A stretch of DNA of 64,000 bases from Actinomycetota bacterium (lineage in GTDB: Bacteria > Actinomycetota > Thermoleophilia > Gaiellales > Gaiellaceae): contig JACDEU010000005.1 of assembly GCA_013816245.1 (NCBI GenBank), positions 1-64,000 on the forward strand. The letters are read 5' to 3'. Position numbers and translations under genes: made by a program. Position 1 is the stretch's first letter; each line of letters opens with the position of its first letter. Positions 4,236 to 28,405 of the stretch are shown here, piece by piece. The notes beneath the pieces were generated by a model that was not told the origin of the DNA, ran no database searches, and saw nothing but the letters and a program-made list of their open reading frames with translations.

Positions 4236-4274
4236 GACGTGGCTGGAGCGGCGCCGTCCCGGCACGCCGTGTGC

Positions 4275-5303
4275 TCAGACGCGAGCCTCGACGGTGGCTT
4301 CGTGAACGAACTCGGTCAGACGCCGAAGAACAGCCGGGTCTGTTTCGGGTGGCACACCGTGCCCAAGGTTGAACACATGACCCGGCCGCCCTCCGGCACG
4401 CGCGAGAATAGCGCGGGTTTCGGACTCGATTCGCTCCCACGGGCCGAGCAGAAGCGCCGGGTCGAGGTTCCCTTGCACGCCTCGTTCCTCACCGACTTCC
4501 GACCAGCCGCGGTCGAGCGGAATGCGCCAGTCGAGCCCGATCACGTCGCCGCCCGCCTCCGCCATCGACGACAGGAGAGTCGCCGTCCCGGTGCCGAAGT
4601 GGATCGTCGGCACGTCGACCGCAGCGAGGATGCGTGCCGAGTACCGCGCGACGAATTCCTCGTAATCCGACGGCGAGAGTGCGCCCACCCACGAGTCGAA
4701 GACCTGAATCACGTCGGCACCAGCCCGCGCTTTCGCGGCGACGTAGCCCGCGAACGTCTCTGCCAACTTCTCCATCAGCGCGTGCCACGTCACGGGCTCG
4801 CGGTACATCATCTGCTTCACGGTCGCGAACTCGCGGCTCGGCTTTCCCTCGATGAGATAACCGGCGACGGTGAACGGGCCGCCGCAGAAACCGATCACCG
4901 CCTGATCGTCGCGTAGCGCCGCGCGCACGAGCCGCACCGCCTCGAGGATCGTCGGCACCGATTCCTCCGGCTCCGGCACGACGAGCCGCTCGACGTCCGC
5001 CATACATCGCACCGGTTCCGCGATCACCGGGCCGACGTTCTCGACGAGGTCGACCTGAACCCCCATGGCGAGGACGGGGAACATGATGTCCGTGAACATC
5101 ACCGCGGCGTCGACGTCGTGCCGGCGGACGGGCTGCAGCGTCACTTCGGCGCAGAGCTCCGGCTCGGCGACGATGTCGAAGAGCCCGTAGCGCTTGCGCA
5201 GCTCGCGATATTCCGGGAGCGAGCGACCCGCCTGGCGCATGAACCACACCGGCGTGTGCTCCACCGGCTCTCGGCGGCAGGCCCTGACGAGAAGCGGCTC
5301 CAC
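4275..5303 (-). CDS. hemE: Uroporphyrinogen decarboxylase
   Basis: A 342-residue cytosolic enzyme that removes four carboxyl groups from uroporphyrinogen III to give coproporphyrinogen III. The family signature RQAGRSLPEYR is at about 23-33, with the usual Tyr replaced by Ser; the catalytic Asp is in FTDIM (about 72); GFCGGPFT and FNLGHGV are also present. Length is normal. Translation starts at GTG 5301-5303, 8 bases after a TAGCCT hexamer, so the mRNA is probably leaderless. It is upstream of hemH on the same strand with a 198-base gap, and head to head with the orphan beta-sandwich gene. Confidence 0.93.
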   Translation of the reverse strand: MEPLLVRACRREPVEHTPVWFMRQAGRSLPEYRELRKRYGLFDIVAEPELCAEVTLQPVRRHDVDAAVMFTDIMFPVLAMGVQVDLVENVGPVIAEPVRCMADVERLVVPEPEESVPTILEAVRLVRAALRDDQAVIGFCGGPFTVAGYLIEGKPSREFATVKQMMYREPVTWHALMEKLAETFAGYVAAKARAGADVIQVFDSWVGALSPSDYEEFVARYSARILAAVDVPTIHFGTGTATLLSSMAEAGGDVIGLDWRIPLDRGWSEVGEERGVQGNLDPALLLGPWERIESETRAILARAGGRPGHVFNLGHGVPPETDPAVLRRLTEFVHEATVEARV

Positions 5304-6864: not shown

Positions 6865-8679
6865 GTGAAGGTGCTCGTGGCGATCGCTGCGTTTCCCGCC
6901 GCGGCCGCGGCCATCTGGCTGCTGCTCCACACGCCGTTGGCCGCCCGCCTCGGCGCGGCCCCGCGTGAAGATCGCTGGCACGAGCGAACGACGCCGGTGC
7001 TCGGCGGCATGGGGATCTTCGCCGGGATCCTGACGGGATTCTGGGTCGCGGTCGCGGTCGGCGCGGCCCCGGCGAGCCGCGAGCTCGTGGCGATCCTCGG
7101 AGGGTGCTCCATCCTCTTCGTAGCGGGCCTGCTCGACGACCTCTTCTCCCTGGGCCCGATTCCGAAGCTTGCCGCCCAGATCGCGGCGGCCTGCCTCGTG
7201 ATCTTCAACGGACTCACGATCTCGGGGCTGATCTCGAACGACTTCCTCGCGGGGGTCGTGGCACTCGTGTGGCTCGTCGGGATGACGAACGCGTTCAACC
7301 TGCTCGACAACATGGACGGCCTCGCGGCGACGCTCGCCGGAATCGCCGCGGTGTTCTTCGCCATCGATGCGCTCGAGGTCCATAAGAACCACGGCGTCCT
7401 GGCGCTGTCGCTCGCGCTCGCGCTCGCCTGTGCGGGCTTCCTGCCTTTCAACCTGCGCTACGGCAAGTCGGCTGCGGTCTTCATGGGCGACTCGGGGAGC
7501 CAGGTGCTCGGCTTCCTGCTCGCGGCGCTCGGGCTGACGGCGAGCTGGAAGGTCGCCGGGACCACGGTCGCCACCCTCCTCCTGCCGATTCTCGTCCTCG
7601 CGGTTCCCATCCTCGACACGACGCTCGTCACCGTCGTGCGGCTGCTCGACGGGCGGCCCGTGTACCAGGGCGGTCGCGATCACACGTCGCACCGCCTCGT
7701 GTACCACGGGCTCTCCGAGAAGCGTGCGGTCGTCCTGCTCGCCGTCATCGCCGCTGCGCTCGGAACGACGAGCCTGTTCTACAGCGTGCTCGACAACGCC
7801 TGGGTGACTCTGATCGGCGTGCTCCTGAGCTTTGCCTTGCTCGTCCAATTCGCGAGCGTCCTTTCGGACGTCGAACGCGCGCCGGGCCTCGTTTCAGACC
7901 GCGGCTGGTTGCACACGTTCGTCGCAAATCCACGCAGGCTCGTCGAGTCGCTCGTCGACTTCGCACTGATCACCGCCTCGTTCGCCCTGGCGTACTACCT
8001 GAGGCTCCAGGGAGGAGGGAGCGACTACCAGCGGCACATCTTCGCGGTCTCGATCGGCGTGGTGGTCGCCGTGCGCTATCTGGCCTTCATCCCGTTCGGG
8101 CTCTACCGCGGCGTCTGGCGCTACGCGGGCGCACGGGATGCCGCAAGCATCGTCGCCGCCGTGATGGTGTCGGAGGCCGCCGCCTACCTGATCCTCGATG
8201 CGACCCAGAACCTGGGGCCGTTTCCGCGCAGCGTCTTCGTGATCGACGCGCTCATCTGCACCGTGCTGGTGGGGGCCTCCCGCTTCTGGGAGCGGGCGTT
8301 CGTGCGCGGCGTCTCGTCGCTTACCGGCCGCGGCAAGCGCCACCGGACGCTGATCGTCGGGGCGGGCCGAGGCGGACGCAGCCTGCTACGCGAGCTCCGG
8401 GAGACACCGGGAGAACAGGTCGTCGGGTTCGTCGACGACGACCCGCGGCTGTCGCGGCGCCGCCTGCAGGGTGTGCCCGTGGTCGGCGACACGAGCAAGA
8501 TCGAGCAGATCCTTTCGCGTACGCACCCGGACACCGTCCTCGTGACGATTCCCGACGCTCCCCGTGAGCGACTCGGGCTCGTGGTCGACGCCTGTGCGCT
8601 GGCCCAGCTGCCGTGCCGCTTCGTCCGGCGCCACACCGACCTCGACCCCGACGTCGCACTCGGCGCTACCTTCGACTGA
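6865..8679 (+). CDS. WecA/TagO-type sugar-1-phosphate transferase fused to a FlaA1-like membrane/Rossmann half
   Basis: A 604-residue polytopic membrane protein. Residues 1-330 are a polyprenyl-phosphate HexNAc-1-phosphate transferase: DD at 91-92, NAFNLLDNMDG at 142-152, MGDSGS at 207-212 and DHTSHR at 272-277 are the catalytic and substrate loops. It would start a glycan on undecaprenyl phosphate. Residues 355-480 add about four more membrane segments and 495-600 a Rossmann fold (GAGRGGRSL at 499-507), as in the N-terminal half of FlaA1/CapD-type proteins, but the SDR dehydratase that normally follows is missing. A sugar-nucleotide sensing role for this half is inference. It starts at a leaderless-type GTG and leads a pair with the GT-C gene. 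Confidence 0.88.
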   Translation: MKVLVAIAAFPAAAAAIWLLLHTPLAARLGAAPREDRWHERTTPVLGGMGIFAGILTGFWVAVAVGAAPASRELVAILGGCSILFVAGLLDDLFSLGPIPKLAAQIAAACLVIFNGLTISGLISNDFLAGVVALVWLVGMTNAFNLLDNMDGLAATLAGIAAVFFAIDALEVHKNHGVLALSLALALACAGFLPFNLRYGKSAAVFMGDSGSQVLGFLLAALGLTASWKVAGTTVATLLLPILVLAVPILDTTLVTVVRLLDGRPVYQGGRDHTSHRLVYHGLSEKRAVVLLAVIAAALGTTSLFYSVLDNAWVTLIGVLLSFALLVQFASVLSDVERAPGLVSDRGWLHTFVANPRRLVESLVDFALITASFALAYYLRLQGGGSDYQRHIFAVSIGVVVAVRYLAFIPFGLYRGVWRYAGARDAASIVAAVMVSEAAAYLILDATQNLGPFPRSVFVIDALICTVLVGASRFWERAFVRGVSSLTGRGKRHRTLIVGAGRGGRSLLRELRETPGEQVVGFVDDDPRLSRRRLQGVPVVGDTSKIEQILSRTHPDTVLVTIPDAPRERLGLVVDACALAQLPCRFVRRHTDLDPDVALGATFD

Positions 8680-8686
8680 TCCGCCG

Positions 8687-10861
8687 ATGGCCGTCGTGAC
8701 CGCCCGCCGAGCGCCAGCTGAACAGACGCTGGTCGACCGTTTTTTGGCGGCGGTGCCGCTTCTCAGCGTCTTCGTCTGGCTCGCGATCGTGTTCATGATC
8801 CAGGCCTGGGCTCACAAGACACCGTGGCTCTTCGGCGACGAGCTCGAGCTGACACAGTTGTCCCGCGCGATCGCCGACACTGGTCATGCCGCCCGGCGCG
8901 GCGCGCCGTACTCGTTCACGACGCTCTGGACTTACGTGCTCGCGCCCGCCTGGCTGATCGACAACCTGCACGCCGCGTACGCGACCGTGAAGTACCTGAC
9001 GGTGATCGTGATGACAGCCACTGTCTTTCCCGCATACGGGATTGCACGTCTTGCCGTCGGGCGCCGGCCGGCGCTCTTCGTCGCCACAGCATCCGCCGCG
9101 ATACCCGCGGTCGCCTACTCGTCGATGATCGTCGAGGAACCGGCTGCGTACCTCTTCTCGACCTTTGCGCTCTTCCTCATCCTGCGCGCATTCGTGACTC
9201 CGTCGCGCTGGTGGATCGGCGGGGCCGTGCTCGCGTCGCTCATCGCACCACTGGTACGTGGTGAGCTCGCCGTGATCCCCGCCGTGTTCCTGCTCACAGG
9301 CACGTTCCTGTTCTGGCGGTCCGAGTACTTCACCGCGTGGCGCAGAAGCTGGGGCGCCTGGGACTGGACCGGCTTCGTGACGCTCGTCGTCGGCGTCGCA
9401 GTGATCGTGAGCGCCGTACTCGGTCATCGTTCGCTCGAGTGGAACTACTCGACCCGGCTCTACAAGGACCGCATGCTCGATCTTGGCCTCAACGCCGCAG
9501 GCGCGTTGACGATCGGGCTCGGAGTGCTGCCCGTAGTCGCGGGCCTGGCCTCCCTTTGGCGCGCGCCCGGCGAACCGGTGACGCGCGAGCTCCGCAGCTT
9601 CCGCAGCGTCCTACTCGCGGCGATCATCGGCTTCGGGCTCTACACCGCAGTCAAGGCGACATACGTCTCGATCACCTTCGCGACGTACACCTACGAGCGC
9701 AACCTCATCTACCTCGCGCCGCTCCTCTTCACGGGTACAGCGCTCTGGCTGGAGCGCAGGCGGCTGCATCCGATCGCGCTCGGAGCATCGACCGCATTCG
9801 TCCTGCTGCTCATCCTGACCACGCCGTACGAGATGGGCCAGGATCTCTCGTACAACGCCCCCGGGCTGGCGATCCTTCAGCAGGCGAATCGCTATCTCCA
9901 GCTCGATCCGACCGGGGCGAAGATCGGTCTCGTCGCTCTGCTCTGCTTCTCGGTCGCACTCTTGCTCGCGCCACGCTTCGTGGGTCGCGGCACCAGGTGG
10001 CTCGTGCTCGCGATCGCCGCGGCCGTCCTCGCCTGGAACTTGACCGCAGAGCTCTCCTTTGCCTCCGCATCTAACCGCACCTCGGACCGCTTCGTCGAGA
10101 ACCTTCGCGCACCGTTCACGTGGGTCGACGACGCGACCGGCGGCGCGCCGACGCTGTACCTCGGCCAGCAGATGTCCGACCAGAACGGCGAGTGGCTGCT
10201 CGAGTTCTGGAACCGCTCGATCAAGGCCGTCTGGAGCCTGGACGGCACCGCGCAGGGCCCCGGCCCCTTCCTCACGCCCGACCAGGGCGCGTCGAACGGC
10301 GCCCTCTCGCACGACCCCGGCTATCCGTACGTCGTCGAGGAGCAGGGCATCGAGGTCGTCGGCAAGACGGTCGCGACGCACCTGCACCGCGCCGGCGGCG
10401 GGCTCGAGCCGTGGCGCCTGGTGAAGATCGCTCCGCCGCTTCGGCTACGAGGCTCGGTCACCGGCGTCTACTCCGACGGCTGGATGAGCTTGTTCAGCGC
10501 CTACACGCGCTACTCGACCGAAGGGAACAAGCCCGGGCGGATTCGCGTAATCGTCTCCCGGGCCCCCTGGGGCGGGACGAACGTCACCGGACACGTGACA
10601 GTGGCAATCGGGCCGATGGTGGTCGGCGACGACAAACAACCGCATCTGGGCAAAGCGACCGACGTGAAGCGATTCGACATCCATAGCAAGGAAGTGAAAC
10701 CCGTCGTTCTGAAGGCGCCGGGACCGCGCTTCCGCGTCGAGGTCACGATCACGCCGACCTTCGTGCCGCACGACCTCGATCCGGGGTCGGGCGACCGGCG
10801 CAAGCTCGGAGCGAAGGTCAGCTACATCTTCTTGCCGCCGCGGAAGGCAGCGCACAAGTAG
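8687..10861 (+). CDS. GT-C fold membrane glycosyltransferase with extracytoplasmic C-terminal domain
   Basis: A 724-residue protein. After one membrane helix (about 22-40) comes GDELELTQLSR followed by ADTGH, an acidic first-loop motif (D51, E52) as in GT39/ArnT-like enzymes that use polyprenyl-phosphate sugars outside the membrane. About eleven hydrophobic segments end near residue 490; the remaining 230 residues are soluble and probably exposed outside. The ATG at 8687 is chosen because it lies 7 bases after the upstream stop; longer in-frame starts fall inside the WecA fusion. The same motif occurs in the fusion protein at 15215-18520. Acceptor and sugar are unknown. The last 40 bases overlap the converging methyltransferase gene. 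Confidence 0.8.
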   Translation: MAVVTARRAPAEQTLVDRFLAAVPLLSVFVWLAIVFMIQAWAHKTPWLFGDELELTQLSRAIADTGHAARRGAPYSFTTLWTYVLAPAWLIDNLHAAYATVKYLTVIVMTATVFPAYGIARLAVGRRPALFVATASAAIPAVAYSSMIVEEPAAYLFSTFALFLILRAFVTPSRWWIGGAVLASLIAPLVRGELAVIPAVFLLTGTFLFWRSEYFTAWRRSWGAWDWTGFVTLVVGVAVIVSAVLGHRSLEWNYSTRLYKDRMLDLGLNAAGALTIGLGVLPVVAGLASLWRAPGEPVTRELRSFRSVLLAAIIGFGLYTAVKATYVSITFATYTYERNLIYLAPLLFTGTALWLERRRLHPIALGASTAFVLLLILTTPYEMGQDLSYNAPGLAILQQANRYLQLDPTGAKIGLVALLCFSVALLLAPRFVGRGTRWLVLAIAAAVLAWNLTAELSFASASNRTSDRFVENLRAPFTWVDDATGGAPTLYLGQQMSDQNGEWLLEFWNRSIKAVWSLDGTAQGPGPFLTPDQGASNGALSHDPGYPYVVEEQGIEVVGKTVATHLHRAGGGLEPWRLVKIAPPLRLRGSVTGVYSDGWMSLFSAYTRYSTEGNKPGRIRVIVSRAPWGGTNVTGHVTVAIGPMVVGDDKQPHLGKATDVKRFDIHSKEVKPVVLKAPGPRFRVEVTITPTFVPHDLDPGSGDRRKLGAKVSYIFLPPRKAAHK

Positions 10862-13216: not shown

Positions 13217-14196
13217 GCCGCGGCCTCCCGGTACACCTGCACGGTCGCGTCTGCCACCGCATCCCAGCGAAACTCGCGCGCCCGCTCGAGCCCTCTCGCG
13301 ACGAGCTCGTCCCGATCGGTCGCGGCGCGCTCGATGCCCGCACTGATCTCTGCGGGATCGCGAGCGTCGACCAGCACCGCGGCACCGTCGGCAACCTCTT
13401 CCATCGCAGTGCCGCGCGTCGTCACGACCGGTGTGCCGCAGGCCATCGCTTCGAGCACAGGAATGCCGAAACCCTCGTAGAGCGAGGGATAGGCAACGCA
13501 GGTTGCGCCCCGATACAGGCGCGCCAATTCCGCGTCACTCACCTCGCCGAGCCAGCGCACCCCGTTTCCGCCGACCTCGACGCCTCCCCAGCCGCGGGCG
13601 CCGACGACGCGGAGCTCTCGGTTGCCGGCTCGCACGGCCTCGGCCAGGCGTTCGAGGTTCTTGCGCGGCTCGAGTGTCCCGACGGCGAGGACGTAGTCGC
13701 CGTCCTCGGCCTCCCCCACAGGCGTGAACTCGTCGCCGACCGCGTTCGGCACGACGCGGATCTTCTCCTCGGGCACGCGCAGCAACTCGATCAGCTCCCT
13801 CCGCGTGAAATCGGACACAGCGATCACTCTTTGCGCCGCTGCCAGCACCCGGGGGACGACACGAGGACTGTAGGCACGCGTCCAGCGGTTGAAGGCCTCG
13901 GGATGCCGGAAGACTGCGAGATCGTGAACCGTCACGACCAGCGGAACGCGCGAGCGTGTCGGACCGCGATAGGTCGGGCAATGAAGAACGTCCGCAGTGT
14001 CTTCGCGGCCGAGCAGGAACGGGTACCAAACGGCATCACGCGCCAGCGTCGAAGCCCTGTCGGTTCGCCCGAACGTTCGCGTCGTCACCTCGACGTCGTC
14101 CCGGCGCCGCAGCTCTCGCAGCAGGCTCTCGAGGTACCTGGCCGTGCCGGCACGTGTCTGAACAAGCGGAGAGACGTCGATTGCAACGCGCATCAC
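13213..14196 (-). CDS. GT4 glycosyltransferase
   Basis: A 327-residue GT-B enzyme that begins with VAIDVSPL and TARYLES, followed by VTVHDLA and the donor motif SLYEGFGIPVLEAMACG near residue 240. Two start codons are adjacent: GTG at 14194-14196, which gives the usual GTGA overlap with the gene before it, and ATG at 14191-14193. Close relative of its two neighbours; sugar specificity is unknown. Confidence 0.9.
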   Translation of the reverse strand: MMRVAIDVSPLVQTRAGTARYLESLLRELRRRDDVEVTTRTFGRTDRASTLARDAVWYPFLLGREDTADVLHCPTYRGPTRSRVPLVVTVHDLAVFRHPEAFNRWTRAYSPRVVPRVLAAAQRVIAVSDFTRRELIELLRVPEEKIRVVPNAVGDEFTPVGEAEDGDYVLAVGTLEPRKNLERLAEAVRAGNRELRVVGARGWGGVEVGGNGVRWLGEVSDAELARLYRGATCVAYPSLYEGFGIPVLEAMACGTPVVTTRGTAMEEVADGAAVLVDARDPAEISAGIERAATDRDELVARGLERAREFRWDAVADATVQVYREAAA

Positions 14197-15218
14197 AGCG
14201 CGTCAGCGTAGCTCTGGAGGTGAATCCGTCCTGTTTCCAGCCAACTGAAGCGGCGCGCCTGGTCGAGGCCACGCGTCACGAGCTCGTCGCGATCGGCGAG
14301 GGCGCGACGGATGCCCTCGGCGAACTCCTCGGGGCTGTCGGGATCAGCACGCACGGCCGCGTCTCCGCACGCCTCGTCGAGCGATGTATGCGACGACACG
14401 ACGCATGGCACACCGCAGGCCATCGCCTCGACGACGGGCATACCGAAACCCTCGAACCGGGACGGGTACGCGAAGACCGCGGCACCGCGGTAGAGCGCGG
14501 CCAGCTTCTCGTCCGATGGATAGCCGAGCCCTTCGTGGCCCAGAGCGGCAAGAGCGAGCTCGTCTCCGAGCAGCCCGACGGCAAGCTCGACGACGCGCCG
14601 GTTCTTGCGCCAGTCCTCGGTTGCGGTGGTGAACACGTACGGACGGCCGTGGTCATGGCGCTCGCCGTGTGGCCGGAACCGGCCGTCGACGCCGGGATAG
14701 GCGACGTGCACCCGCTCAGGTCGAAGGCCGAGCCGGTCGATGACGTCGTTCGCCGTGTAGCTCGAGTTTGCGAAGACGACGTCGCACGTCTGCGCCTCTC
14801 GCGCGGTGGCGGAGTGCATGTTCACCGTGCGCGGATACAGGCGTTCCGGAAACCGCAACGGCCCGAGATCGTGAATCATCGTCGCGCGCACGCCGGCGCG
14901 CTGCGGCGGGATCATCCAGTCGCTGAAGTGCAGGACGTCGAAGTTGCCGATGAACGTCTCCGCGAGCGGACGCCCGAGCGCTCCCCAGGCCCGCCGGGTG
15001 GCGTGCGCGAACGGCACCGTGAAGAGGCGCTTCTCGACCGGGAGACCGTCGAGCGTCTCGTCGAGCAACGTTCGCCCACGGATGCTCACGGGACCGAACG
15101 CCACGATCTCGTGCTTTTGGCCCGGTGCCTCGAGCATCCCCTTCAGCGCACCGAGAATGTAGTTGCCGACGCCGGTTCGCGGATGCGAGAGCGGCGTGAC
15201 GTCATAGGCGATCCTCAC
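14193..15218 (-). CDS. GT4 glycosyltransferase
   Basis: A 341-residue GT-B enzyme, third of the tandem set. It begins with RIAYDVTPLSHPRTGVGNY, and the donor motif SRFEGFGMPVVEAMACG lies near residue 260. The start is GTG 15216-15218, which overlaps the stop of the fusion gene as GTGA; the longer frame upstream lies inside that gene. It is likely to act in the same chain as its neighbours. Confidence 0.9.
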   Translation of the reverse strand: MRIAYDVTPLSHPRTGVGNYILGALKGMLEAPGQKHEIVAFGPVSIRGRTLLDETLDGLPVEKRLFTVPFAHATRRAWGALGRPLAETFIGNFDVLHFSDWMIPPQRAGVRATMIHDLGPLRFPERLYPRTVNMHSATAREAQTCDVVFANSSYTANDVIDRLGLRPERVHVAYPGVDGRFRPHGERHDHGRPYVFTTATEDWRKNRRVVELAVGLLGDELALAALGHEGLGYPSDEKLAALYRGAAVFAYPSRFEGFGMPVVEAMACGVPCVVSSHTSLDEACGDAAVRADPDSPEEFAEGIRRALADRDELVTRGLDQARRFSWLETGRIHLQSYADAL

Positions 15219-18200
15219 GGAGCGGCGTAGAGAAAGGCGAGGAAGTGCACGCCGAGGACGCGCGGGTCGGCCGGCCCGGGAACGGCTGTTGGGCTCACTG
15301 TGAACACGGCACGACATACACCGTCATGCGGTCGAAGCGGCACGGTCATGCTCGCATCGTCATTCGAGCGAAACGTCACGCTCCTCCCCTCCGCACGGAC
15401 AGTCTGCGGACCGCTGATCAGATTCGGGTCGCGCCTCAGCTGCGCTGTCACCCTGCCCCCGGTACATCGCAGGCGCGTGTAGGTCACGCGCTTTCCCGAC
15501 CAGGTGTCGTTTGGATAGAGGCCGCGCACCCGATAGCCGAGGCGCACCGGGCCGTCCGTACGACGGAGAGCCATTCCCTTGCGCTCATCGCGGGCAACGA
15601 TGTCCCCCGCGATGGGCACGGCTTCCCCGGTGAGCACGTACGCATGACGCACCGGTTCGCCGTTTGCGAGCAGGACGCCGTCGCTTCGCTCCGTCACTTT
15701 CGTCTCGGGCAGTCCGCCCATCGACGGCTGTTTCAGGTCGTAGACCGGGCCGATGCTCCGGTTGTAGAACTCGTTCTCCCAGAGCGTGTTCGGGTGGTGC
15801 GTCGGATCCTTGCCCGAGAAGACGAACGCGACGTCGGCGTTCCGGCCCACCGCTGCATCGACCCAGTCCCGGTCGGGCAGAGCGATGCCCTCGTAGAGCG
15901 CTCCGATGGACGCCTTGGGGAAGCCGTGGTCGAAGCGCTCGATGCGCTCGGTCGCGAATGCGAACCAGAGCAGAACAACACCCGGCAGGACGAACGCGTA
16001 GCGCGCCGGCAGGGTCAGGAACAGGATGCCGAGCGCAACCGCGGCGGCGGCGACCACCACCGCGATCGTGTCGAGACCGACGACGGTCTCCTGCAGCCAC
16101 CAGAGCGGCAGCAGCGCGAGCGTGTCCGATTCGGCAGACGCGTCGATCAGCCGCTGATACGGAAGCACCGCTGGAAGCGCAGCGGCCAGGACGGCGGCGA
16201 TCGCGGCCGCGCGCGGCGGACGCGGGAGCCCGCGCTCGATCCACGCGAGCAGCGCGATCAGGAACAGCGGTGCGACGTAGAAGAGATTGCGTTCCTGGAT
16301 CCGAGGCGAGAGCGCCGAGGCGAAGGCTCCGACCTCCAGGAGAAGCCAGCCGATCAGCGGTATCGCGCCGGCGAGAAAGACCCGAAGCGGCCGGTCGAGG
16401 GAGCGGCCGATCACGGCGAGCAGGAGCAGGGCCGCGAAAGGAACGATCCCGAGATAGAGATCGAGCTCCGACACGTGATACAGCACCCACTTCAAGACCT
16501 GACCGGGCCTGTAGGTCGCATGACCGGTCACGCTGTAGCTCCCGAGGATGTCGTACGGCGAATGGCCGCGGGCGAGCTGCACGACGAGGACGGCGACGAC
16601 CGCGGCGAGGAGCGCACCGTAGAGAGCCTTGAAGTCCGTGAGCGTGCGCAGGCGGCGGCGATCGAGCCACGTGAGCAGCAGCGGCGCCGTCGCGACTGCG
16701 GGGATCAGGATGATCGCCTGAGAGCGCGTCAGGAAGGCGAGCAGACAGAGTGCGAGCAGGACGAGCTGCCGCTGGATCGTCGGTCGCTCGAGTGCGAGGA
16801 TGAGCGCAAGCGCGACACAGGCGAAGAGTGGGTAAAAGACCGTCTCCGTCATCAGCGTTCCCGTGTACATCAGCGACGGGACCGCGACTGCGAGGATTGC
16901 CGCGAGCAGCGACGGAATCGGCGCGATCACCCGCCGGGCCAGGAAGTAGACGGGGATCGCCGTCAGAGACATCAGCACAGAGCCGATCGTCTTTGCCGCC
17001 GCGTAGGCGTCGGGAACTGAGGCGAACAGCTTCCACGCGGGAGCGATCAGCAGCGGATAGACGGCGCCGTATGCGCCGTGGTGCACGTCGCGGATCAAGA
17101 AGTGACCCGTATCGGCGAAGCTCTTCGCGAGCTCCGAGTAGATGAGTTCGTCGACCATGATCCACGGCGCGACGACTCTGCGCGACAGGCCGTAACGAAA
17201 GACCGAGGAGACGACGACGAGTGCCGCCAGCCAGGCCCAGATGGGGACGCGCGCGAGGAGATTGACGCCCGGCGAGGGCTGGGGTTCTTGCGCGGGCCGG
17301 CCGTTGCGCGCAAGACCGACCTCGTCCAGCCGGCCGGCGAGCTCCGCGGCGAACGGCGTTCCCGGCTCGATGCCGATCTCTGCCGCGGCCTGTGCGACGT
17401 CCGCGACGACGGCGTCGGCAACCTTCGTTCCCCCTGCGGCGTCCTCGAGTGCGGCCGCGTACTTCTCGGCAACCCTCCCGAGGTCGTGCTCCCGCTCGAC
17501 GTACGAACGCGCGGCGTCGCTCATCGCGAGCTGCGTCGGCTCGCTGGACACGAGCAGCTCGAGTGCCGTCGCAATGGAGGCGATCTCGTTCTGGTCGACC
17601 GGCACCTTGAAGGCGACGTCGTCGGGAAGCTCGGAGAACCAGCCGAGGTCGCTGACGACGAGCGGCCTCCCGAGCGAGAGCGCTCGAATCGCGCTGCCCG
17701 ATGTCTCTCCCATGGTCGGCGAACGCAGCGAGATGCAGGCGTCACATGCAGCCATCAACGACCAGAGGCGGTCCTCCTGGACGTAGCCGATGCGTTCGAC
17801 GCCTTCGGTCACCAACCGTTCGGCGTCGAAGCCGGGCGAGGAGGGGCCGACGAGCAGGAGCTTCGCGTCCGGATGGCGCTCGCGCACCAGTCCGAATGCC
17901 TCGATCAGCTGAGGAATCCGCTTGCTCGCGTTCAGGTGCCCGAAGCACCCGAACAGCGGCCGCACTTCGACGCTCGCCGGCTCGACGTCGACCGGCGGCC
18001 ACGCGGGGTGGTCGACGTGCCAGATCGGCCCGTGGTAGCCGGCCTCACGTGCGCGCTCTTCGACGTAGTGCGAGTGGACGATCAGGCCGGTTGCGTTTGC
18101 CAGCACCTCGCCCGCCAGCGGAAACTCGGCGGGGCTCGTCTCCCATGGCGGAGGCACACGCCCGTCTAGAACACCGTGCGCGAGCAGCCGCCCCGGAATG

Positions 18201-18520
18201 CCCGCGTCGCGTTCCATCGCGGCGAGGTAGCCGTGACCGTCTTTGCGACCGATCGTGAGCCCGGCGACGAGATGATGCAGCACGAAGTCGTGCAAGACGA
18301 CGACGCCCGGCCTCCGTCTGAGCGCGTCGATGATCCACCCGTGCGCCTCTGGATCGTTGCCGACGTGAAACAGCGCAACGTCGGCCGCGACCGGACGAGT
18401 GCGCCCGCGTCTGACGACCTCGATCTCGACGAGGCGGCCGAGTGCGGGCAGGAGCAACGCAGAGTAGTCCGCGATGCCGGACCGTTCCGGCGGTAGCGGT
18501 GAGTAATAGGCGACCTTCAC
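15215..18520 (-). CDS. Bifunctional GT4 / GT-C membrane glycosyltransferase fusion
   Basis: A 1101-residue protein. Residues 1-360 are a GT4 domain (SPLPPERSGIADYS at the start; GHLNASKR at about 194-201 in the donor half; GETSGSAIRALSLG where the second glutamate of the family is replaced). A linker of about 60 residues follows. From about 425 there are some eleven membrane segments, with the first-loop motif VDELIYSELAKSFADTGH (D457, E458) of GT-C enzymes, and the last 200 residues are soluble. The protein could join a cytosolic and an extracytoplasmic sugar addition, or the GT4 part may be a binding module. GTG 18518-18520 is the start (GTGA overlap with the gene before). Confidence 0.85.
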   Translation of the reverse strand: MKVAYYSPLPPERSGIADYSALLLPALGRLVEIEVVRRGRTRPVAADVALFHVGNDPEAHGWIIDALRRRPGVVVLHDFVLHHLVAGLTIGRKDGHGYLAAMERDAGIPGRLLAHGVLDGRVPPPWETSPAEFPLAGEVLANATGLIVHSHYVEERAREAGYHGPIWHVDHPAWPPVDVEPASVEVRPLFGCFGHLNASKRIPQLIEAFGLVRERHPDAKLLLVGPSSPGFDAERLVTEGVERIGYVQEDRLWSLMAACDACISLRSPTMGETSGSAIRALSLGRPLVVSDLGWFSELPDDVAFKVPVDQNEIASIATALELLVSSEPTQLAMSDAARSYVEREHDLGRVAEKYAAALEDAAGGTKVADAVVADVAQAAAEIGIEPGTPFAAELAGRLDEVGLARNGRPAQEPQPSPGVNLLARVPIWAWLAALVVVSSVFRYGLSRRVVAPWIMVDELIYSELAKSFADTGHFLIRDVHHGAYGAVYPLLIAPAWKLFASVPDAYAAAKTIGSVLMSLTAIPVYFLARRVIAPIPSLLAAILAVAVPSLMYTGTLMTETVFYPLFACVALALILALERPTIQRQLVLLALCLLAFLTRSQAIILIPAVATAPLLLTWLDRRRLRTLTDFKALYGALLAAVVAVLVVQLARGHSPYDILGSYSVTGHATYRPGQVLKWVLYHVSELDLYLGIVPFAALLLLAVIGRSLDRPLRVFLAGAIPLIGWLLLEVGAFASALSPRIQERNLFYVAPLFLIALLAWIERGLPRPPRAAAIAAVLAAALPAVLPYQRLIDASAESDTLALLPLWWLQETVVGLDTIAVVVAAAAVALGILFLTLPARYAFVLPGVVLLWFAFATERIERFDHGFPKASIGALYEGIALPDRDWVDAAVGRNADVAFVFSGKDPTHHPNTLWENEFYNRSIGPVYDLKQPSMGGLPETKVTERSDGVLLANGEPVRHAYVLTGEAVPIAGDIVARDERKGMALRRTDGPVRLGYRVRGLYPNDTWSGKRVTYTRLRCTGGRVTAQLRRDPNLISGPQTVRAEGRSVTFRSNDDASMTVPLRPHDGVCRAVFTVSPTAVPGPADPRVLGVHFLAFLYAAP

Positions 18521-19542
18521 GCGAGCAGACGCGCGATCGTCTCGTCCCAGGACACGCGGCTCGCGATCTCCTTGCCGGCCTGCCCCCACGTCTTCGCGTC
18601 ATCCACGTGTTCGCGTAGCCACGAGCACGCCTCGGCAAGCGCGTCGGCCCGCGGTTCGCAGACGATTCCCGTTCTGCGGTCGGAGACGACCTCGAGCGGA
18701 CCTCCCGCATCGGTCGTCGTCACAACCGGCTTCTCGGCGAGGAACGCCTCGTACGGAACCATCCCGAAATCCTCGTCCACCGGCGCGTAGTAGACCGCGA
18801 GACAGCGCGCGTAGAGCGTTGCGAGCTCCGCCTCGTCGATTCGGCCGGTGAAGCGGGCGCGTCCGTCGAGACCGTGCCTGCGCGCCACGTCTTCGAGCCG
18901 CTCGCGATCCGGCCCGTCGCCGACGATCACGCAGCGCAGCGTGGTGTCCGCAGCCAAAGCGTCGAGCAGCAGCTCATGCCTCTTTGCCTGGTCCAACCTT
19001 CCGACCGACAGGACGAAGTCGTCGTAACTCTCCGTCCGGTAGGCGAGCTCCTGCGGCGGGTGCGGCATCACCTCGGCCTCGATCCCGGTCGAGCGCTGCA
19101 GGCGGTCGGCGACGTTCCGAGACGTCGCGAACACCTTTCGCGCTTCGCCGAGGGCGACACCGTCCAGGCGTTGCACGGCGCGGCGCGTCGCACGATCCTC
19201 GGAGCTCTCGCCGAACTGCCCCAGGTCGGTGCGGTCGAGCTCGTACGCCTGGCGGAACTGGTGCAACAGCCAGACGACCTTGTTGGGATGACGGACGGCG
19301 TACGACGGGAACTTGGTCGCGATCACGAGTTCGATCGTGCGACCGTCCGACTCGCTCAGGTCGAGCAGCCGCCAGAGGAACGCCTGAGAGAGCACGCGCT
19401 TACCGGGGTACCACTTGTACGGAATCGTGACCAGGTCCGCCTCGTGACCACGTTCCCGCAACTCGCCGACGAGGTCGTCGGCGAAGATCTCTGCCCCACC
19501 ACGCGCAAACGGCACCTGCGGCGCGCAAACGGCGATTCTCAC
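18517..19542 (-). CDS. GT4 glycosyltransferase, first gene of the seven-gene operon
   Basis: A 341-residue GT-B enzyme. The glycine-rich acceptor loop is VPFARGGAEIFADDL at the N terminus; the donor motif is DEDFGMVPYEAFLAEK near residue 230, with the paired glutamates. The GTG start at 19540-19542 is preceded by a 12-base palindrome and, about 60 bases upstream, by a promoter-like pair of hexamers. All six genes after it overlap by four bases, so the whole run to 10822 is probably one transcript. Confidence 0.9.
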   Translation of the reverse strand: MRIAVCAPQVPFARGGAEIFADDLVGELRERGHEADLVTIPYKWYPGKRVLSQAFLWRLLDLSESDGRTIELVIATKFPSYAVRHPNKVVWLLHQFRQAYELDRTDLGQFGESSEDRATRRAVQRLDGVALGEARKVFATSRNVADRLQRSTGIEAEVMPHPPQELAYRTESYDDFVLSVGRLDQAKRHELLLDALAADTTLRCVIVGDGPDRERLEDVARRHGLDGRARFTGRIDEAELATLYARCLAVYYAPVDEDFGMVPYEAFLAEKPVVTTTDAGGPLEVVSDRRTGIVCEPRADALAEACSWLREHVDDAKTWGQAGKEIASRVSWDETIARLLA

Positions 19543-20816: not shown

Positions 20817-22319
20817 TCAGTGGAGGGCGCGCACGTACTGCCACGCCTGGGCGAGCCCGAGCTGTCGGATCGCCAGCAGGAGCAATGCGTAGAGCGCCAG
20901 GCCCGCCGCAGCAGCTGGCACCGCGCCGAAAACGAGCGAGGCGCCGCCGAAAGCGAGCGCCGTTGCCGCGCCGACGAGCAGCGAGAGCCGGCCGAGCCCG
21001 TTCACGGTCAGCCAGAGCATCCTCGGAGCGAGCGAGGCCATCAGACCGAGCACGACGAGCAGTGTCGTGATCCCGAGCGCCACGGTCACACCGGTCAGGC
21101 CCCAGAGCGAGCGGGCCACGACCGAGATCGGGATATCGATCACGACACCGGCCAGCGCCAGAGGAATGAGCAAGCGAGTCCGGTGCATGACGAAGAGAAG
21201 CGGATACATGATCAGGAACGCCGCGTTCCCGATCATCCACGGCGACAGGAAGACGACGAGCCGTCCGAGCTCGTCGCCAACGTGCCCCGAGAAGGCCTGA
21301 CCGAGCACCGCGGTTACGACCCGGCCGCCGAGGAGCGCGACGAGGCCGGCCGCTGCGCCGACGAACGCGAGCGAGACCCACGCCGAATGGACAACGTGCT
21401 CTGCGGCGCTCTCCGCATCCACACCACGCCGGGTCAGCGGGGCGGCCGAGATCAGCGAGAGCGAGAACGCCGTCGTGCTGACGAACGTCGCGGCGAGCAG
21501 GTAGGCGTAGGAAAGGCTGGTCACATTCCCCTCGCCGGTACCGCCGGCGAACCTGAGCGCGATCACGTAGAGGCCCTGGAGGGCCAGGGGGACCGACGCA
21601 CCGTAGGCAAGGCGCCAAAGCCGGTAGCGGAGCCTGAGTGGCACACCGCGATGCCGCCGCAGGCGATTGCCGCGAAAAAGCAACACCACGAGCGGCAGCC
21701 CGATCGCGATCGCGCCGTTCAGAGCCAGCCCCCACGCGAGCGCGACGAGACCGTGTGAGTCGGCAGCGAGAACGAACAAGACCACGCCGCCGATCCCGCC
21801 GATCGCGAAGCCGAGCGCGGCCGGGACGTAGCTGTCCTTCGCCGCAAGCGCACTGGCGGCCAGGGCGGCGATCAGCTGTGCGAATGCGGCAGGCACCAGC
21901 CACGGGAGCGCCTGGGCGGCCACGTGCGCAGACGACTCCGGCAGCCGTCCGGTGATCAACTCGCCCCAGAAATCCGCGAAGACCGCGGTTATCACCGTGG
22001 CGGGCACCGCAACGGCGAGGAAGGCGACGCCATAAGCGCGAAACTCCGATCCGAGGTTCCCCTCCGCCTCGGCACGCGTGAGGTCCGGGACGACCACCAT
22101 GCGAAAGGCCTGCGCGCCGAGAACCAGGACCAGATAGACGCCGTAGGCCGCCATGAAGCCGTCGGTTTTCTCGTCCCGGCCGAACTTGTGCGCGAGAAAG
22201 GCACCGGCCACCGCGGCGGCCAGGCTCAGAGCCACATATGAGAGACCTGTAAAGGCGCCGCTTCGAACGGCGCTCCGGCCGCGCTCCGGGCTACCCTTGG
22301 GCTGCTCGTCGGCGGGCAC
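20817..22319 (-). CDS. MurJ/Wzx-like lipid-linked glycan flippase
   Basis: A 500-residue membrane protein of the MOP superfamily (MurJ/MVN-like), with about 13-14 hydrophobic segments and the N-terminal KFGRDEKTDGFMAAYG region typical of MurJ relatives. It would flip undecaprenyl-linked oligosaccharides across the membrane. The start is taken as GTG 22317-22319; no promoter hexamer or ribosome site is clear there, and only six bases separate it from the ATG of the divergent dehydratase gene. A second flippase of a different type lies at 41592-42899. Confidence 0.85.
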   Translation of the reverse strand: MPADEQPKGSPERGRSAVRSGAFTGLSYVALSLAAAVAGAFLAHKFGRDEKTDGFMAAYGVYLVLVLGAQAFRMVVVPDLTRAEAEGNLGSEFRAYGVAFLAVAVPATVITAVFADFWGELITGRLPESSAHVAAQALPWLVPAAFAQLIAALAASALAAKDSYVPAALGFAIGGIGGVVLFVLAADSHGLVALAWGLALNGAIAIGLPLVVLLFRGNRLRRHRGVPLRLRYRLWRLAYGASVPLALQGLYVIALRFAGGTGEGNVTSLSYAYLLAATFVSTTAFSLSLISAAPLTRRGVDAESAAEHVVHSAWVSLAFVGAAAGLVALLGGRVVTAVLGQAFSGHVGDELGRLVVFLSPWMIGNAAFLIMYPLLFVMHRTRLLIPLALAGVVIDIPISVVARSLWGLTGVTVALGITTLLVVLGLMASLAPRMLWLTVNGLGRLSLLVGAATALAFGGASLVFGAVPAAAAGLALYALLLLAIRQLGLAQAWQYVRALH

Positions 22320-22325: not shown

Positions 22326-23468
22326 ATGAAAGCAGACAAACACCACTCCACCTGGACGGACGACACCGTCGCTGATCTGCGGCGAGAGTTCGGCGAGTTC
22401 TTCACCGGACGCACGTGCCTCGTCACGGGCGCCGATGGATTCATGGGCTCGCACCTCACCGAGGCGCTCGTCTCGCTCGATGCGAACGTCCACGCCTTTG
22501 TGCGCGCAACCTCCAGCGGTGCGCTGAACAACATCTCGTCGCTGCGCGACCAGCTGAAGATCCACTTCGCCGACCTCACCGACAAGACGTCGGTCGACTA
22601 CCTCGTCAAGGAGCTGCTGGACGCGCCCGACAAGCCCTACGTCTTCCACCTCGGAGCGCAGGCGCACGTCGGTGAGTCATGGCACCGGCCGTACGAGACC
22701 GTGATGGCGAACACGGTCGGAACGCTCAACCTCCTGCAGTCGATCGTCGACTACGGGCTCGAGCTCGAGAAGTTCGACACCGCAGGGACGTCTGAGGAGT
22801 ACGGCAACCCGCGGGAGTCGGTCGCGCATCACCACGACTTCGACGAGGAGGGTGGGCTGATCCTGCACGAGCGGTCGCCGATCAACCCGAAGTCGATCTA
22901 CGCGACATCCAAGGTTGCCGCGGACTTCCTCACGATGAACTACCACGACGCCTTCGGCCTGCCGGGAGTCGTGACGAGGATGTTCAACAACTACGGGCCG
23001 CGCCAGAACCCGCGCTACGTGACCGGGACGATCATCACGCAGGCTCTGACGCGCGAGACAGTCGAGCTCGGGCAGCTCGATCCGCTGCGCGACTTCTGCT
23101 TCTGCACGGACGGCGTCCGCGGACATCTCACCGTGGCGGCACGCGGGACCCCCGGCGACGTCTACGTCTACGGGCAGGGCAACAACATCTCGATGCGCGA
23201 CTGGGCCCACATGATCCTGCGGGTCGGGCGCGACCAGGGGCACTGGGGCGAGCGAGAGATCGTCTCGACGGCCGACCGCTTCCGTCCGGGCGCCAGCGAG
23301 GTGATGGCGCTGCGCGTCGGCTATGAGAAGCTGAACCGCGAAACCGGCTGGGAGCCGCACGTATCGTGGGAGGACGGTGTCGCGCAGACGATCGCGTGGT
23401 ATGCCGAGAACCGCCCGCGCTGGATCGGCCGCGTCGACTGGCACGCGCAAACCAGAGCCCCGGCGTGA
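22326..23468 (+). CDS. SDR-family nucleotide-sugar dehydratase, GDP-mannose 4,6-dehydratase-like
   Basis: A 380-residue extended SDR enzyme. NAD-binding [10 protein letters not shown] is at 34-43, the catalytic TSEEYG at 155-160 and YATSK (Tyr192, Lys196) follows. The TSE triplet is the form found in 4,6-dehydratases, where Glu does the dehydration. The next gene encodes a GDP-L-fucose synthase, which uses the product of GDP-mannose 4,6-dehydratase, so that activity fits best, although the N terminus (about 28 extra residues) and insertions differ from classical Gmd. A GDP- or dTDP-hexose dehydratase of other specificity is possible. Confidence 0.75.
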
Positions 23469-24394
23469 AGACGCTCGTAACGGGGGGCGGCGGCTTCCTC
23501 GGCTCGCATCTCGTCGCGCGCCTCGAGACCGACGGCCACGACGTCGCCGCCGCCCGGCGAGCCGATTACGACTTGACGCACTGGGACGACGCGGAGCGTC
23601 TCTTCCGCGAGACGCAGCCGGAGCGAGTGTTCCACCTCGCGGGTGAGGTGGGCGGCATCGGCGCGAACCGGGTCAACCCGGGACGCTTCTGGTACGCAAA
23701 CCTGATGATGGGAGCACACATCCTCGAGCTCTCTCGCGAGCACAGCATCGACAAGCTCGTCATCGCCGGCACAGTCTGCGCGTATCCGAAGTTCGCACCC
23801 GTGCCCTTCCGCGAGGCGGACCTGTGGGACGGCTATCCCGAAGAGACGAACGCGCCCTACGGAGTTGCGAAGAAGTCGATCCTCGTCGGCGCGCAGGCTT
23901 ATCGCGAGCAGTACGGTCTGGACTCGATCTTCCTGCTGCCGGCGAACCTCTACGGGCCGCGTGACAACTTCGATCTCGAGACGTCGCACGTCATTCCGGG
24001 GCTGATCCGGAAGATGCTCGACAACGCGGAGCGGGTCACGCTCTGGGGCGACGGGTCTCCGACGCGTGAGTTCCTCTACGTCGACGACTGCGTCGAAGGG
24101 CTCGTACTGGCCGCCGAACGCTATGACGGCGCAGATGCGGTCAACCTCGGCACCGGTGCAGAGATCTCGATTCGGGATCTAGCGGAGCTGATCGCGGAGC
24201 TCACGGGGTTCGACGGCGAGATCGAGTGGGACAGCTCGATGCCGAACGGCCAGCCGCGTCGCAGCCTCGACGCGAGCCGCGCCCGGGAGCTCTTCGGCTT
24301 CGAGGCGCGCACGCCACTGCGTGAAGGCCTCGAGCGAACGATCGCGTGGTATCGCGAGCACGCAGGCGCGATCGCCACAGCTACTCCTTCGTGA
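23465..24394 (+). CDS. fcl: GDP-L-fucose synthase
   Basis: A 309-residue SDR epimerase/reductase that turns GDP-4-keto-6-deoxymannose into GDP-L-fucose. NAD(P)-binding [10 protein letters not shown] is at the start, the family hallmark [10 protein letters not shown] follows, and the catalytic YGVAK comes after VCAYP. The start GTG 23465-23467 overlaps the preceding stop (GTGA), so both pathway steps are translated together. The longer in-frame start lies in the dehydratase gene. The donor formed would serve a fucosyltransferase somewhere in the island. Confidence 0.88.
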
Positions 24395-26067: not shown

Positions 26068-26413
26068 CCCCCTCGCGCAGCTGCTGCTCGAGCAGCGCGA
26101 GCCGCTGAGCGAGGATCGTGTTCTGGTCCGAGAGCCGCGAGATGACCGTGGAGTAGTGCAACAGCACCACGAGGATGAAGAGAGCGCCGATCGCGCCGAG
26201 GATGGCGGGCGGATAGGTCTCGACACCGAACCAGCCCGCGATCGTGTTGAGGCCGTCACGCCAGACCGACAGTGCGAGCAGCACCACGCCGGTGAGCAGC
26301 CAGAGCAGCGCGTAACGCTCACGCAGCCGGCGCGAGCGGATCAGCTCGAAGACCACGAGGAGGAGCAGAAAGGACGCGACCGCCGCAGCGATCGAAACGG
26401 GAAGCGGTGTCAT
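26054..26413 (-). CDS. DUF2304 small membrane protein
   Basis: A 119-residue protein with three hydrophobic segments (about 5-25, 36-50, 70-88) and a short charged coiled tail (LAQRLALLEQQLRE). It matches the DUF2304 family, which typically sits directly after a GT2 polyprenyl-phosphate sugar synthase, as it does here with an ATGA overlap. A role as membrane anchor or partner of that GT2 is inferred from this constant pairing. The ATG is at 26411-26413. Confidence 0.8.
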   Translation of the reverse strand: MTPLPVSIAAAVASFLLLLVVFELIRSRRLRERYALLWLLTGVVLLALSVWRDGLNTIAGWFGVETYPPAILGAIGALFILVVLLHYSTVISRLSDQNTILAQRLALLEQQLREGATES

Positions 26414-27195
26414 CGGTGGTGATCCTCCTCTGGCGGAACGGCGTAACGGCGAAACAGTCCGACGAAGATCGCGAGCAGCACCTTCGTCATGTAATAGACA
26501 GAGCGCAGAGCGGTGATCGACGACGCACCGCCGGCGCGCTCGCGCATCTGGACAGGCACCTCGCGCAGGCACAGCTTGTGCTTGACGCACATCACCGTCG
26601 TCTCGACCTCGGGATAGTCGTGGGGATAGTCGGCTGCGAAGAGCGCGATGCCCCGGCGGTTGACGGCGCGAAAGCCAGAGGTCGTGTCGGTGACCTTCTG
26701 GCGCACGACGGCGGAGACGACCATCGCGAAGACCCTGATCCCGAGACGTCGCGTGAAGGACGACTGATACCCGCTGCCGTGCGCGAAGCGGGAGCCGACG
26801 CACAGATCCGCCTCCCCGGCGAGAACAGGCTCGAGAATCGCCGGCAGCTGGGCCGGGTCGTGCTGGCCGTCGCCGTCCACCTGCACCGCAACGTCGTAGC
26901 CGCGCTCGAACGCGAACCGGTAGCCGGTCTGCATCGCACCACCGATCCCGAGGTTGAAGGGCAGACGCAGCACGTGAGCACCGCGATCCGCCGCCATCCC
27001 GGCCGTTCGGTCCGTGGAACCGTCGTCGACCACCACGATGTCGAAGCCGGGGTCGAAGGCGTGGATCTCGTCAATCACCCGCCCGACGCTTTCCTCCTCG
27101 TTCCAGGCCGGGACGATCGCGAGCCGCTTCAGCTCGCCGAGCTGTGCGAGCACGGCGTCGCGTGGCGGCGCAGGAACCGCGGCGAGCTCAGCCAC
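26410..27195 (-). CDS. GT2 polyprenyl-phosphate sugar synthase-like glycosyltransferase
   Basis: A 261-residue GT-A enzyme close to dolichol-phosphate mannose synthases: PAWNEEESVGRVI, then VVDDGSTDRT, and QVDGDGQHDP with the metal-binding DxD. It has no membrane domain of its own, which the DUF2304 protein next to it may supply. The product would be an undecaprenyl-phosphate-linked mannose or glucose that feeds the GT-C enzymes of the island. The start is GTG 27193-27195 (8-base overlap with the gene before it); a start about 13 codons downstream is also possible. Confidence 0.85.
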   Translation of the reverse strand: MAELAAVPAPPRDAVLAQLGELKRLAIVPAWNEEESVGRVIDEIHAFDPGFDIVVVDDGSTDRTAGMAADRGAHVLRLPFNLGIGGAMQTGYRFAFERGYDVAVQVDGDGQHDPAQLPAILEPVLAGEADLCVGSRFAHGSGYQSSFTRRLGIRVFAMVVSAVVRQKVTDTTSGFRAVNRRGIALFAADYPHDYPEVETTVMCVKHKLCLREVPVQMRERAGGASSITALRSVYYMTKVLLAIFVGLFRRYAVPPEEDHHR

Positions 27196-28405
27196 GAGCG
27201 CCCACCGGTGTCGCGACCCCGACGAGCTCGAGGATCTGGCGGGCACGGTGAGCGTAGGTGTGCTCGTCGAGCACACGCTCTCGCGCACGCCTCCCCATCG
27301 CCTCCGCGGCACCCGGATCCTCGAGGAGCTCCCGATAGGCCGCAAGCGCCTCGTCGGGCGTCGTGACGACCCTCAGCTCGGAGCCGACGTCGAACCAGCG
27401 CTCGATCCCCTCGTGCGGGTTCGACACGATCGCCGCCCCGGAGGCGGCGAGCTCGAACGGCCTGCACGTGGACGACGCGTAGACGGTCGCGTGTGAGCGG
27501 CGCGTGATGTTCAGGTTGATGCGGGCGCGAGAGATGGCCTGAGCGAAGACGTTGAACGGCACGTCACCGATGACCTGAGCGTTGCCGATGTCGCCACGGA
27601 AGTCCTTGCCGCCGAGCGCGAAGTCGATCTCCGGATCTCGGCGGCTCGGCTCGCCGATGAGCGCCTGCATCCACTCGCGCCTGAACTTGTCGCCGTAGCC
27701 GTAGAAGAAGACGTCGTGCTCCTTCTCGACCGCCGCCGGCTGGAACAGTTCCGGGTCGGCGGCCCAGAACACGGCCGCGGCACGGCGCGCTCCGAGCTCG
27801 CGCAGACGGTCGAGGCCGCCCTCGGAGTTGGAGATGACGAGGTCGTATTCCGACGGATCCGCACCGTGGTAGTAGTTGAAGCCCGTGTCCATGCCGCCGA
27901 ACTCCGGCAAGCTCATCGGCACGTCACCGTCGTAGAAGAAAACCGGCACGTCGAAGCGCTCGCGCAGCCGCGCCGGGATGCCTCGCAGGTGGGCCATCGG
28001 CACGGTGAAGACGATCACGGCGGCGACGTCACGCTCGCGCTCGAGGATGCGTTCCAGATGACGCTGCCAGCGCGGCGTGACGTAGCGCCAGATCGCCTCG
28101 CGCGTGACCTTGTCTCCGACAGTGTCCTCCGGGTTGTCCTCGCCGCGGCGAAGGAGCGTGTCGCCCTTCAGGCGGGCGGCAAATCCACGCGCGCCGGCGA
28201 AGAGCTCCGCCTCGCGGTAGAGCGGGTTCGGGGCCGTCCGCCACCAGGGCGACTCGATCGCCCGGCCGCGGTAGGGCGTGACGATGAGATCGACGCCGAC
28301 CTCGTTCAAGCCCTTCCAGATCTGCCACCAGGCGGGCGTGCAGCCGTACCGGAAATCGAGGTCGGTCGCGGACGCTACGGCAAGGATTTTTGGCGCTCCG
28401 GGCAC
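27188..28405 (-). CDS. CgeB-like glycosyltransferase
   Basis: A 405-residue GT-B-like protein. The first half has VFFYDGDVPMSLPEFG and YDLVISNSEGG; the second half has FFYGYGDKFRREWM and STCRPFELAASGAAIVSN, the pattern of CgeB/glycosyl-transferase-1-2 proteins in which a conserved Glu binds the donor. The start is GTG 28403-28405, 6 bases after a weak CATACT hexamer (28412-28417). It follows the WbaP-type gene by 42 bases. Acceptor and donor are unknown. Confidence 0.8.
   Translation of the reverse strand: MPGAPKILAVASATDLDFRYGCTPAWWQIWKGLNEVGVDLIVTPYRGRAIESPWWRTAPNPLYREAELFAGARGFAARLKGDTLLRRGEDNPEDTVGDKVTREAIWRYVTPRWQRHLERILERERDVAAVIVFTVPMAHLRGIPARLRERFDVPVFFYDGDVPMSLPEFGGMDTGFNYYHGADPSEYDLVISNSEGGLDRLRELGARRAAAVFWAADPELFQPAAVEKEHDVFFYGYGDKFRREWMQALIGEPSRRDPEIDFALGGKDFRGDIGNAQVIGDVPFNVFAQAISRARINLNITRRSHATVYASSTCRPFELAASGAAIVSNPHEGIERWFDVGSELRVVTTPDEALAAYRELLEDPGAAEAMGRRARERVLDEHTYAHRARQILELVGVATPVGARG

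Follow-up and report, generated by a model that had tools for sequence, protein, structure and literature searches.

The stretch of DNA analysed in this study (64,000 nucleotides, hereafter the window) carries on its minus strand one long open reading frame in which two glycosyltransferases are joined. The initial annotation had described this frame as a single gene for a protein of 1101 residues, and its coordinates and length proved exact. The predicted protein consists of a GT4-type GT-B domain (residues 1–405), a short, disordered and variable linker (residues 406–419) and a PMT_2-type GT-C enzyme with a beta-rich C-terminal region (residues 420–1101), and its features are located as follows:

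15215–18520, minus strand: fused GT4/GT-C gene, 1101 residues plus stop, GTG start at 18520
17306–18520, minus strand: GT4-type GT-B domain, residues 1–405 (Pfam, model pLDDT, fold match)
18290–18292, minus strand: His77, invariant in the GT4 subfamily (alignments)
17684–17710, minus strand: variant EX7E region, residues 271–279, with E272 kept and R279 replacing the second Glu
17264–17305, minus strand: linker and fusion site, residues 406–419 (pLDDT below 50 at 406–419, alignment)
15845–17263, minus strand: GT-C transmembrane part, residues 420–892 (Pfam PMT_2, hydropathy, model)
17147–17152, minus strand: Asp457-Glu458, the modified DxD motif of the GT-C, after the first membrane segment
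15218–15844, minus strand: C-terminal beta-rich region, residues 893–1101 (DSSP of the model; predicted outside)

The Pfam cut-offs were exceeded in both halves, by Glyco_trans_1_4 (residues 188–323, 48.3 bits against a cut-off of 27) and Glycos_transf_1 (residues 185–339, 44.8 bits against 26.4) in the first and by PMT_2 (residues 506–644, 37.0 bits against 26.1) in the second, in agreement with the earlier proposal that a GT4 domain, which should be cytosolic, is joined to a GT-C enzyme, which should face outward. The fused gene overlaps the stop of an upstream GT4 gene by 4 nt and a downstream GT4 gene by another 4 nt, the shared letters being GTGA in both cases. No internal start for a separate GT-C product was found within residues 395–439 of the window gene. 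In-frame GTG, TTG or ATG codons are present in this stretch in 13 of the 16 fused genes described below, in which separate initiation of the GT-C may be possible.

A missed frame break at the junction had been named as an observation that would speak against the fusion. Read-through was searched for in 61 relatives and 129 genomes of the order, and the junction is read through without a stop in 16 genomes of three related genera, namely eight of genus g1 (including the window's own), one of g36 and seven of g41. Two g1 genomes (G003 and G007) hold C-terminal pieces only and are not informative on the junction, and some g41 genomes (e.g. G114, G115, G121 and G123) gave no match at E 1e-40. Hence, the same fusion occurs in three genera, and a sequencing frame error is ruled out by the occurrence of the same join in 16 genomes. 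The state of the window's genome assembly (3.16 Mb in 123 contigs, 92% complete) could be taken to favour a sequencing or assembly artefact, but this explanation is refuted by the recurrence of the same join in many assemblies from three genera and one clade, and its probability is negligible.

The initial annotation had further stated that the GT4 half lacks the second conserved Glu of the EX7E motif and had concluded that it may be a binding rather than a catalytic module. The first statement is borne out by a profile alignment to PimB', in which Glu272 corresponds to the first Glu of EX7E and Arg279 to the second. Structure prediction, likewise suggested at the outset, gave a model of the GT4 half (mean pLDDT 87.8) with a GT-B fold, for which a fold search (VIA) returned GlgM (Z 30.3, rmsd 2.8 over 315 residues), PimA (Z 29.0) and BshA (Z 29.0). 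Given Pfam scores above the cut-offs, a GT-B fold and E272-x6-R279 at the place of the canonical EX7E, the N-terminal half is filed here only as GT4-type with a variant motif.

Arg279 was found in 24 of 25 aligned close sequences and in 17 of 21 distant relatives, which include Chloroflexi, Acidobacteria, Bacillota, Nitrospinaceae, Methylacidiphilum and two methanogenic archaea; a fragment, L114, was excluded from this comparison. The distant relatives were fetched by the patterns LRxPTMGET and [ST]G[IV]ADYSAL, which condition the count for Glu272 and leave those for Asn55, His60, His77, Arg279 and Glu297 unaffected. All 21 distant relatives retain Asn55, His60, His77 and Glu297, and Glu272, Lys200 and His77, the last of which we take to be the GT4 catalytic-site His, are conserved. 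Among six pairs of fused genes, dN/dS ranged from 0.066 to 0.20 in the GT4 half and from 0.06 to 0.56 in the linker (24 compared codons). Judging from these alignments, Arg in place of Glu is the norm in a broad GT4 subfamily found in many phyla, rather than a loss in this protein.

These observations bear directly on the function of the GT4 half. A catalytically dead module that binds a sugar nucleotide or a glycan would be in keeping with Arg279 at the second position of EX7E; however, this reading is very unlikely because the other active-site residues are conserved and under strong purifying selection, and Arg is usual at this position in the subfamily across phyla. A decayed GT4 is ruled out by the same conservation and dN/dS values. 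Against a dead module also stands what has been described for other GT4 enzymes: in WsaF, a GT4 enzyme without the first Glu, the nucleotide's deoxyribose is bound by the second Glu, mutation of which lowers activity without abolishing it, a result read as a role in recognition and not in catalysis, EX7E being usual in GT4 enzymes but not strictly defining (PMC3898925). Similarly, modelling of a GumH complex placed the first Glu beside the anomeric carbon and the second in contact with the ribose (PMC13104830). The GT4 half thus looks like a working variant enzyme, as predicted from residue conservation, and a missing EX7E glutamate should not be taken as loss of function in this GT4 subfamily.

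The GT-C half combines a PMT_2 match above the cut-off with a DxD-like acidic motif after the first membrane span. Hydropathy indicated 11 hydrophobic segments from residue 419 to 860, with a charge pattern that is not decisive for orientation, and Asp457-Glu458, which follows a predicted helix at 427–446, is invariant in 22 aligned sequences. In a separate fold search with the full model, which in effect covered residues 1–364, GT-B chains filled the match list, and no PDB sequence match was obtained for the GT-C alignment. Residues 893–1101 are beta-rich by DSSP of the model, gave no Pfam match and form a possible carbohydrate-binding domain; extra domains of this kind occur in other GT-C enzymes (PMC11127046). 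In the same six pairs of fused genes, dN/dS was 0.087–0.24 in the GT-C core and 0.13–0.29 in the C-terminal region. GT-C enzymes are described as carrying a modified DxD after the first membrane segment and, in most cases, as having a cytoplasmic N-terminus and a C-terminus outside (PMC6801728). With a cytoplasmic N-terminus of the GT-C part, the join would break no topology rule, the GT4 domain being predicted inside and the GT-C active site outside.

Split orthologues in all relatives had been put forward as a second observation that would undermine the fusion. Both genes were seen in 51 loci of Gaiellales (class Thermoleophilia), of which 37 are split and adjacent and 14 fused; split orthologues are thus present in the majority of relatives, though not in every one. 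Of the 56 GT4-anchored Gaiellales loci (L051–L106), 51 have the two genes side by side, and the other five run into a contig end at or just after the GT4 gene; these loci come from one pattern scan of genome contigs and their genomes overlap the read-through set, so the counts are not independent. The split form occurs in the relatives assigned to Gaiellaceae or Gaiella, and the fused loci are assigned to Gaiellales because of their kinship and their position on the tree described below.

In the split loci the GT4 gene stops after about 402–426 residues and the GT-C gene begins close by; in L015 and L021 both lie in one frame with a TAG between them. Among the 37 split loci, 34 (all but L062, L093 and L100) have a possible GT-C start codon 1, 5 or 8 bases ahead of the GT4 stop; the corresponding share for the other stops in the same loci is 31% (2267/7214), an enrichment whose P value is overstated by the relatedness of the loci. 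Short gene overlaps of this sort have been reported to favour coupled translation (PMC10666635).

To place fused and split forms relative to each other, a tree of 49 rows was built from GT4 and GT-C columns with the linker omitted (quick search, LG+G4, support by SH-aLRT only) and rooted with a single long row, the split pair L129, which comes from a different family within the class. Four partial rows (L060, L071, L095 and L101, of which L071 and L101 are fused) were dropped, and L093 has an odd letter make-up. On this tree the ancestral state is split, all 13 fused rows group together in a single clade (SH-aLRT 99), one change suffices and no reversal of the fusion is seen. Several independent fusions are accordingly unneeded, and, as far as gene sequences can tell, the gene is the product of one fusion of an ancestral overlapping gene pair. 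L066, a member of the fused clade, is titled Acidobacteriota and carries a Gaiellales locus, and L114, titled Terriglobia, also carries a Gaiellales locus (82% identical over 104 residues); in both cases the title or the binning looks wrong.

The position of the junction allows the fusion to be read as neutral, in that the frame separation of two overlapping genes was lost, the halves work independently, nothing is coupled, and the product is tolerated since the ends that meet are both cytoplasmic. The junction coincides with the overlap of the split genes, the linker is short as well as disordered and variable, the split form is both ancestral and common, and in one genome (G034, see below) a GT-C of this type occurs without an adjoining GT4. 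On the other hand, the fused form has been kept in three genera without reversal, and the constant adjacency of the two genes in Gaiellales also speaks against independent halves, which makes a neutral event a tentative alternative, possible but doubtful. Physical coupling of the two sides of the membrane is plausible in view of the adjacency, the overlapping genes and the fusion. Given how common the split form is, and that the tree shows it to be ancestral, neither the fusion nor the coupling can be an absolute requirement.

The surroundings of the fused gene contain further genes that may belong to the same pathway:

18517–19542, minus strand: upstream GT4 gene (Pfam), which precedes the pair also in another family of the class
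14193–15218, minus strand: downstream GT4 gene (Pfam), with a 4-nt overlap with the fused gene
26410–27345, minus strand: GT2 similar to the polyprenyl-phosphate sugar synthases AglJ and PpgS but scoring under their cut-offs, a candidate donor maker for the GT-C
20820–22250, minus strand: candidate flippase resembling MurJ but scoring far under the MurJ cut-off; its start position is approximate
6865–8679, plus strand: WecA-like polyprenyl-phosphate sugar-1-phosphate transferase, candidate pathway initiator
8693–10861, plus strand: unfused GT-C paralogue in the same cluster

The order upstream GT4, GT4/GT-C pair, GT4, GT4, GT4 is shared by 17 of the 19 regions compared, or by 14 of 15 distinct loci once the four loci compared twice are counted a single time. 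Where the region reaches far enough, the GT2 comes after the three GT4 genes, and most regions also have a methyltransferase and a flippase match on the upstream side. In L130, L131, L132 and L134, whose regions are long enough, the unfused GT-C and the WecA-like enzyme come next, together with an ABC-2 transporter in L130. In the more distant L093/L133 the order is kept for the upstream GT4 and the pair only. A split pair from another family of the class (L151) shows methyltransferase (53%), upstream GT4 (55%), GT4 (37%) and GT-C (34%) in the same order. The AglJ/PpgS-like GT2 was located 7–11 kb from the pair in all five genomes searched and is 60–71% identical in the four others. Overall, the cluster fits a lipid-linked surface polysaccharide to which a sugar is added outside.

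The pairing of GT4 and GT-C is not absolute, as demonstrated by G034 (L153, 3391–8235). This genome carries a GT-C of this type (38% identical) with an AglJ-like GT2 (32%) about 2 kb away, and no GT4 of this type was found in the 3.4 and 4.5 kb examined on either side of the GT-C; its GT-C and GT2 are possibly parts of a three-component set. In G086 the two halves lie on two contigs, with the GT-C at a contig end, and are uninformative on pairing.

Other genes of the cluster were noted in passing. The WecA-like enzyme (6865–8679) is joined to a CoA_binding_3 domain like that of an EPS sugar transferase at 28448–29944, which passes the TIGR03025 cut-off and is a second possible pathway initiator. 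The interval 22326–24394 encodes a dehydratase of the GDP_Man_Dehyd family and a GDP-L-fucose-synthase-like protein (below NCBIfam cut-offs), a hint of a deoxysugar in the glycan. A fusion of WecA with the GT-C paralogue, suspected from frames of ~1350 residues in G015, G026, G029 and G035, was dropped, the genes lying in different frames in G026 and three other loci.

With moderate confidence, we favour a model in which a fusion of single origin joins two active glycosyltransferases of one surface-polysaccharide pathway of Gaiellales, and we infer the division of their roles between the inside and the outside of the cell. On the cytoplasmic face, the GT-B domain would transfer a sugar from a nucleotide donor to the polyprenyl-linked glycan that the WecA-like enzyme has begun. 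Once flipped, this glycan would receive another sugar from the GT-C on the outer face, drawn from a polyprenyl-phosphate donor, for which the GT2 at 26410–27345 is the candidate maker, and the C-terminal beta domain may hold the acceptor. The fusion would hold both steps at a 1:1 ratio and at a single site, which the overlapping genes of the relatives may already favour; that tethering channels substrate is the least certain step of this model. Speaking against it are the GT-C of G034 without a neighbouring GT4 and the scores of the GT2 and the flippase, which fall below the family cut-offs. The fusion hints that the two enzymes act as a team in building a surface sugar chain.

A different arrangement would make the GT4 half a donor synthase fused to its user, loading polyprenyl phosphate with a sugar that the GT-C uses from the same lipid on the other face. 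Such a pairing recalls Ppm1 as well as GtrB-type enzymes and their partners (PMC3485146, PMC8035078), but in the systems covered by PMC8035078 the lipid-sugar step is carried out by enzymes of the GT-A fold. A GT2 resembling the latter is conserved near the pair, with a related one 2 kb from the lone GT-C of G034, and the flanks fetched for 21 loci of the GT4 subfamily in other phyla yielded no related GT-C, all of which renders a donor synthase quite improbable. Also unlikely is the view that the GT-B half, as a member of the MGETS subfamily, charges a polyprenyl carrier inside with a sugar or glycan and the tethered GT-C uses the same carrier outside, so that the substrate is handed across. 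We know of no described GT-B enzyme fused to a GT-C that consumes its product.

The closest parallel to the fusion is Ppm1, in which a membrane domain and a cytosolic glycosyltransferase domain (D1-D2) are fused in M. tuberculosis and correspond to two open reading frames sharing an operon in M. smegmatis, M. leprae, M. avium and C. glutamicum; for M. smegmatis, a bacterial two-hybrid assay showed that the separate partners interact (PMC3485146). Ppm1 is thus, as here, fused in some species and split into neighbours in others. In contrast, its transferase is a DPM-type polyprenyl-phosphate mannose synthase rather than a GT-B GT4 joined to a GT-C, and the available portion of PMC3485146 does not describe its membrane domain as GT-C. 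The multi-component transmembrane glycosylation systems CsbB/GtcA/YfhO, Gtr and GT136 (PMC8035078, PMC11127046) resemble the present locus in having a GT-C with a modified DxD, sometimes an extra C-terminal carbohydrate-binding domain, and a polyprenyl-phosphate sugar synthase and a flippase, candidates for which are nearby here, below curated cut-offs; unlike here, their components are separate proteins. No GT4/GT-C fusion was noticed in these two papers, whose main texts contain no word beginning with fused or fusion. PimA, PimB', GlgM and BshA share the GT-B fold with the GT4 half (VIA Z 27.7–30.3) and differ in their canonical EX7E (for PimA, see PMC3898925) versus E-x6-R. The literature, judged by titles and the openings of abstracts and mostly outside subscription journals, yielded no GT4/GT-C fusion, and a study of Gaiellales cell-wall polysaccharide was absent from the literature matches listed. 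The parts are already known and are joined as other transferases have been.

Beyond the order, the screen covered 399 genomes from the class and 396 from the phylum, two samples that overlap each other and the order set. The class sample gave a match at E up to 1e-40 in 74 genomes, which belong to families f1 (69), f3 (three) and f5 (two); in the phylum sample the GT4 subfamily appeared in several families and its fusion to GT-C in the window's own only. With two candidates scored per genome, the same fusion was not seen outside the order in either sample. A tblastn search for a related GT-C in the flanks of the 21 distant GT4 loci was negative, and listing reading frames and hydrophobic segments in ten more loci showed that L145 and L147 have membrane proteins, with 6 and 8 segments, close to the GT4.

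A fusion of enzymes across the membrane is natural evidence that two steps share one pathway and perhaps one complex. It offers a handle on how bacteria of the soil lineage Gaiellales coordinate those steps of surface-glycan assembly that take place inside the cell with those outside, and the same locus exists there in fused and split natural versions, making the effect of the fusion directly comparable.

Finally, the same GT4 subfamily takes part in another fusion. Two tandem GT4 matches of the MGETS type share one reading frame in loci of Acidobacteriota and Thermoanaerobaculia, L121 (6001–8493, 831 residues) and L124 (2401–4329, to the contig edge). Similarly, in L147, from another actinobacterial family, a frame of 974 residues (2359–5283) contains an MGETS-type GT4 and the beginning of what resembles a second GT4, indicating a possible tandem fusion.
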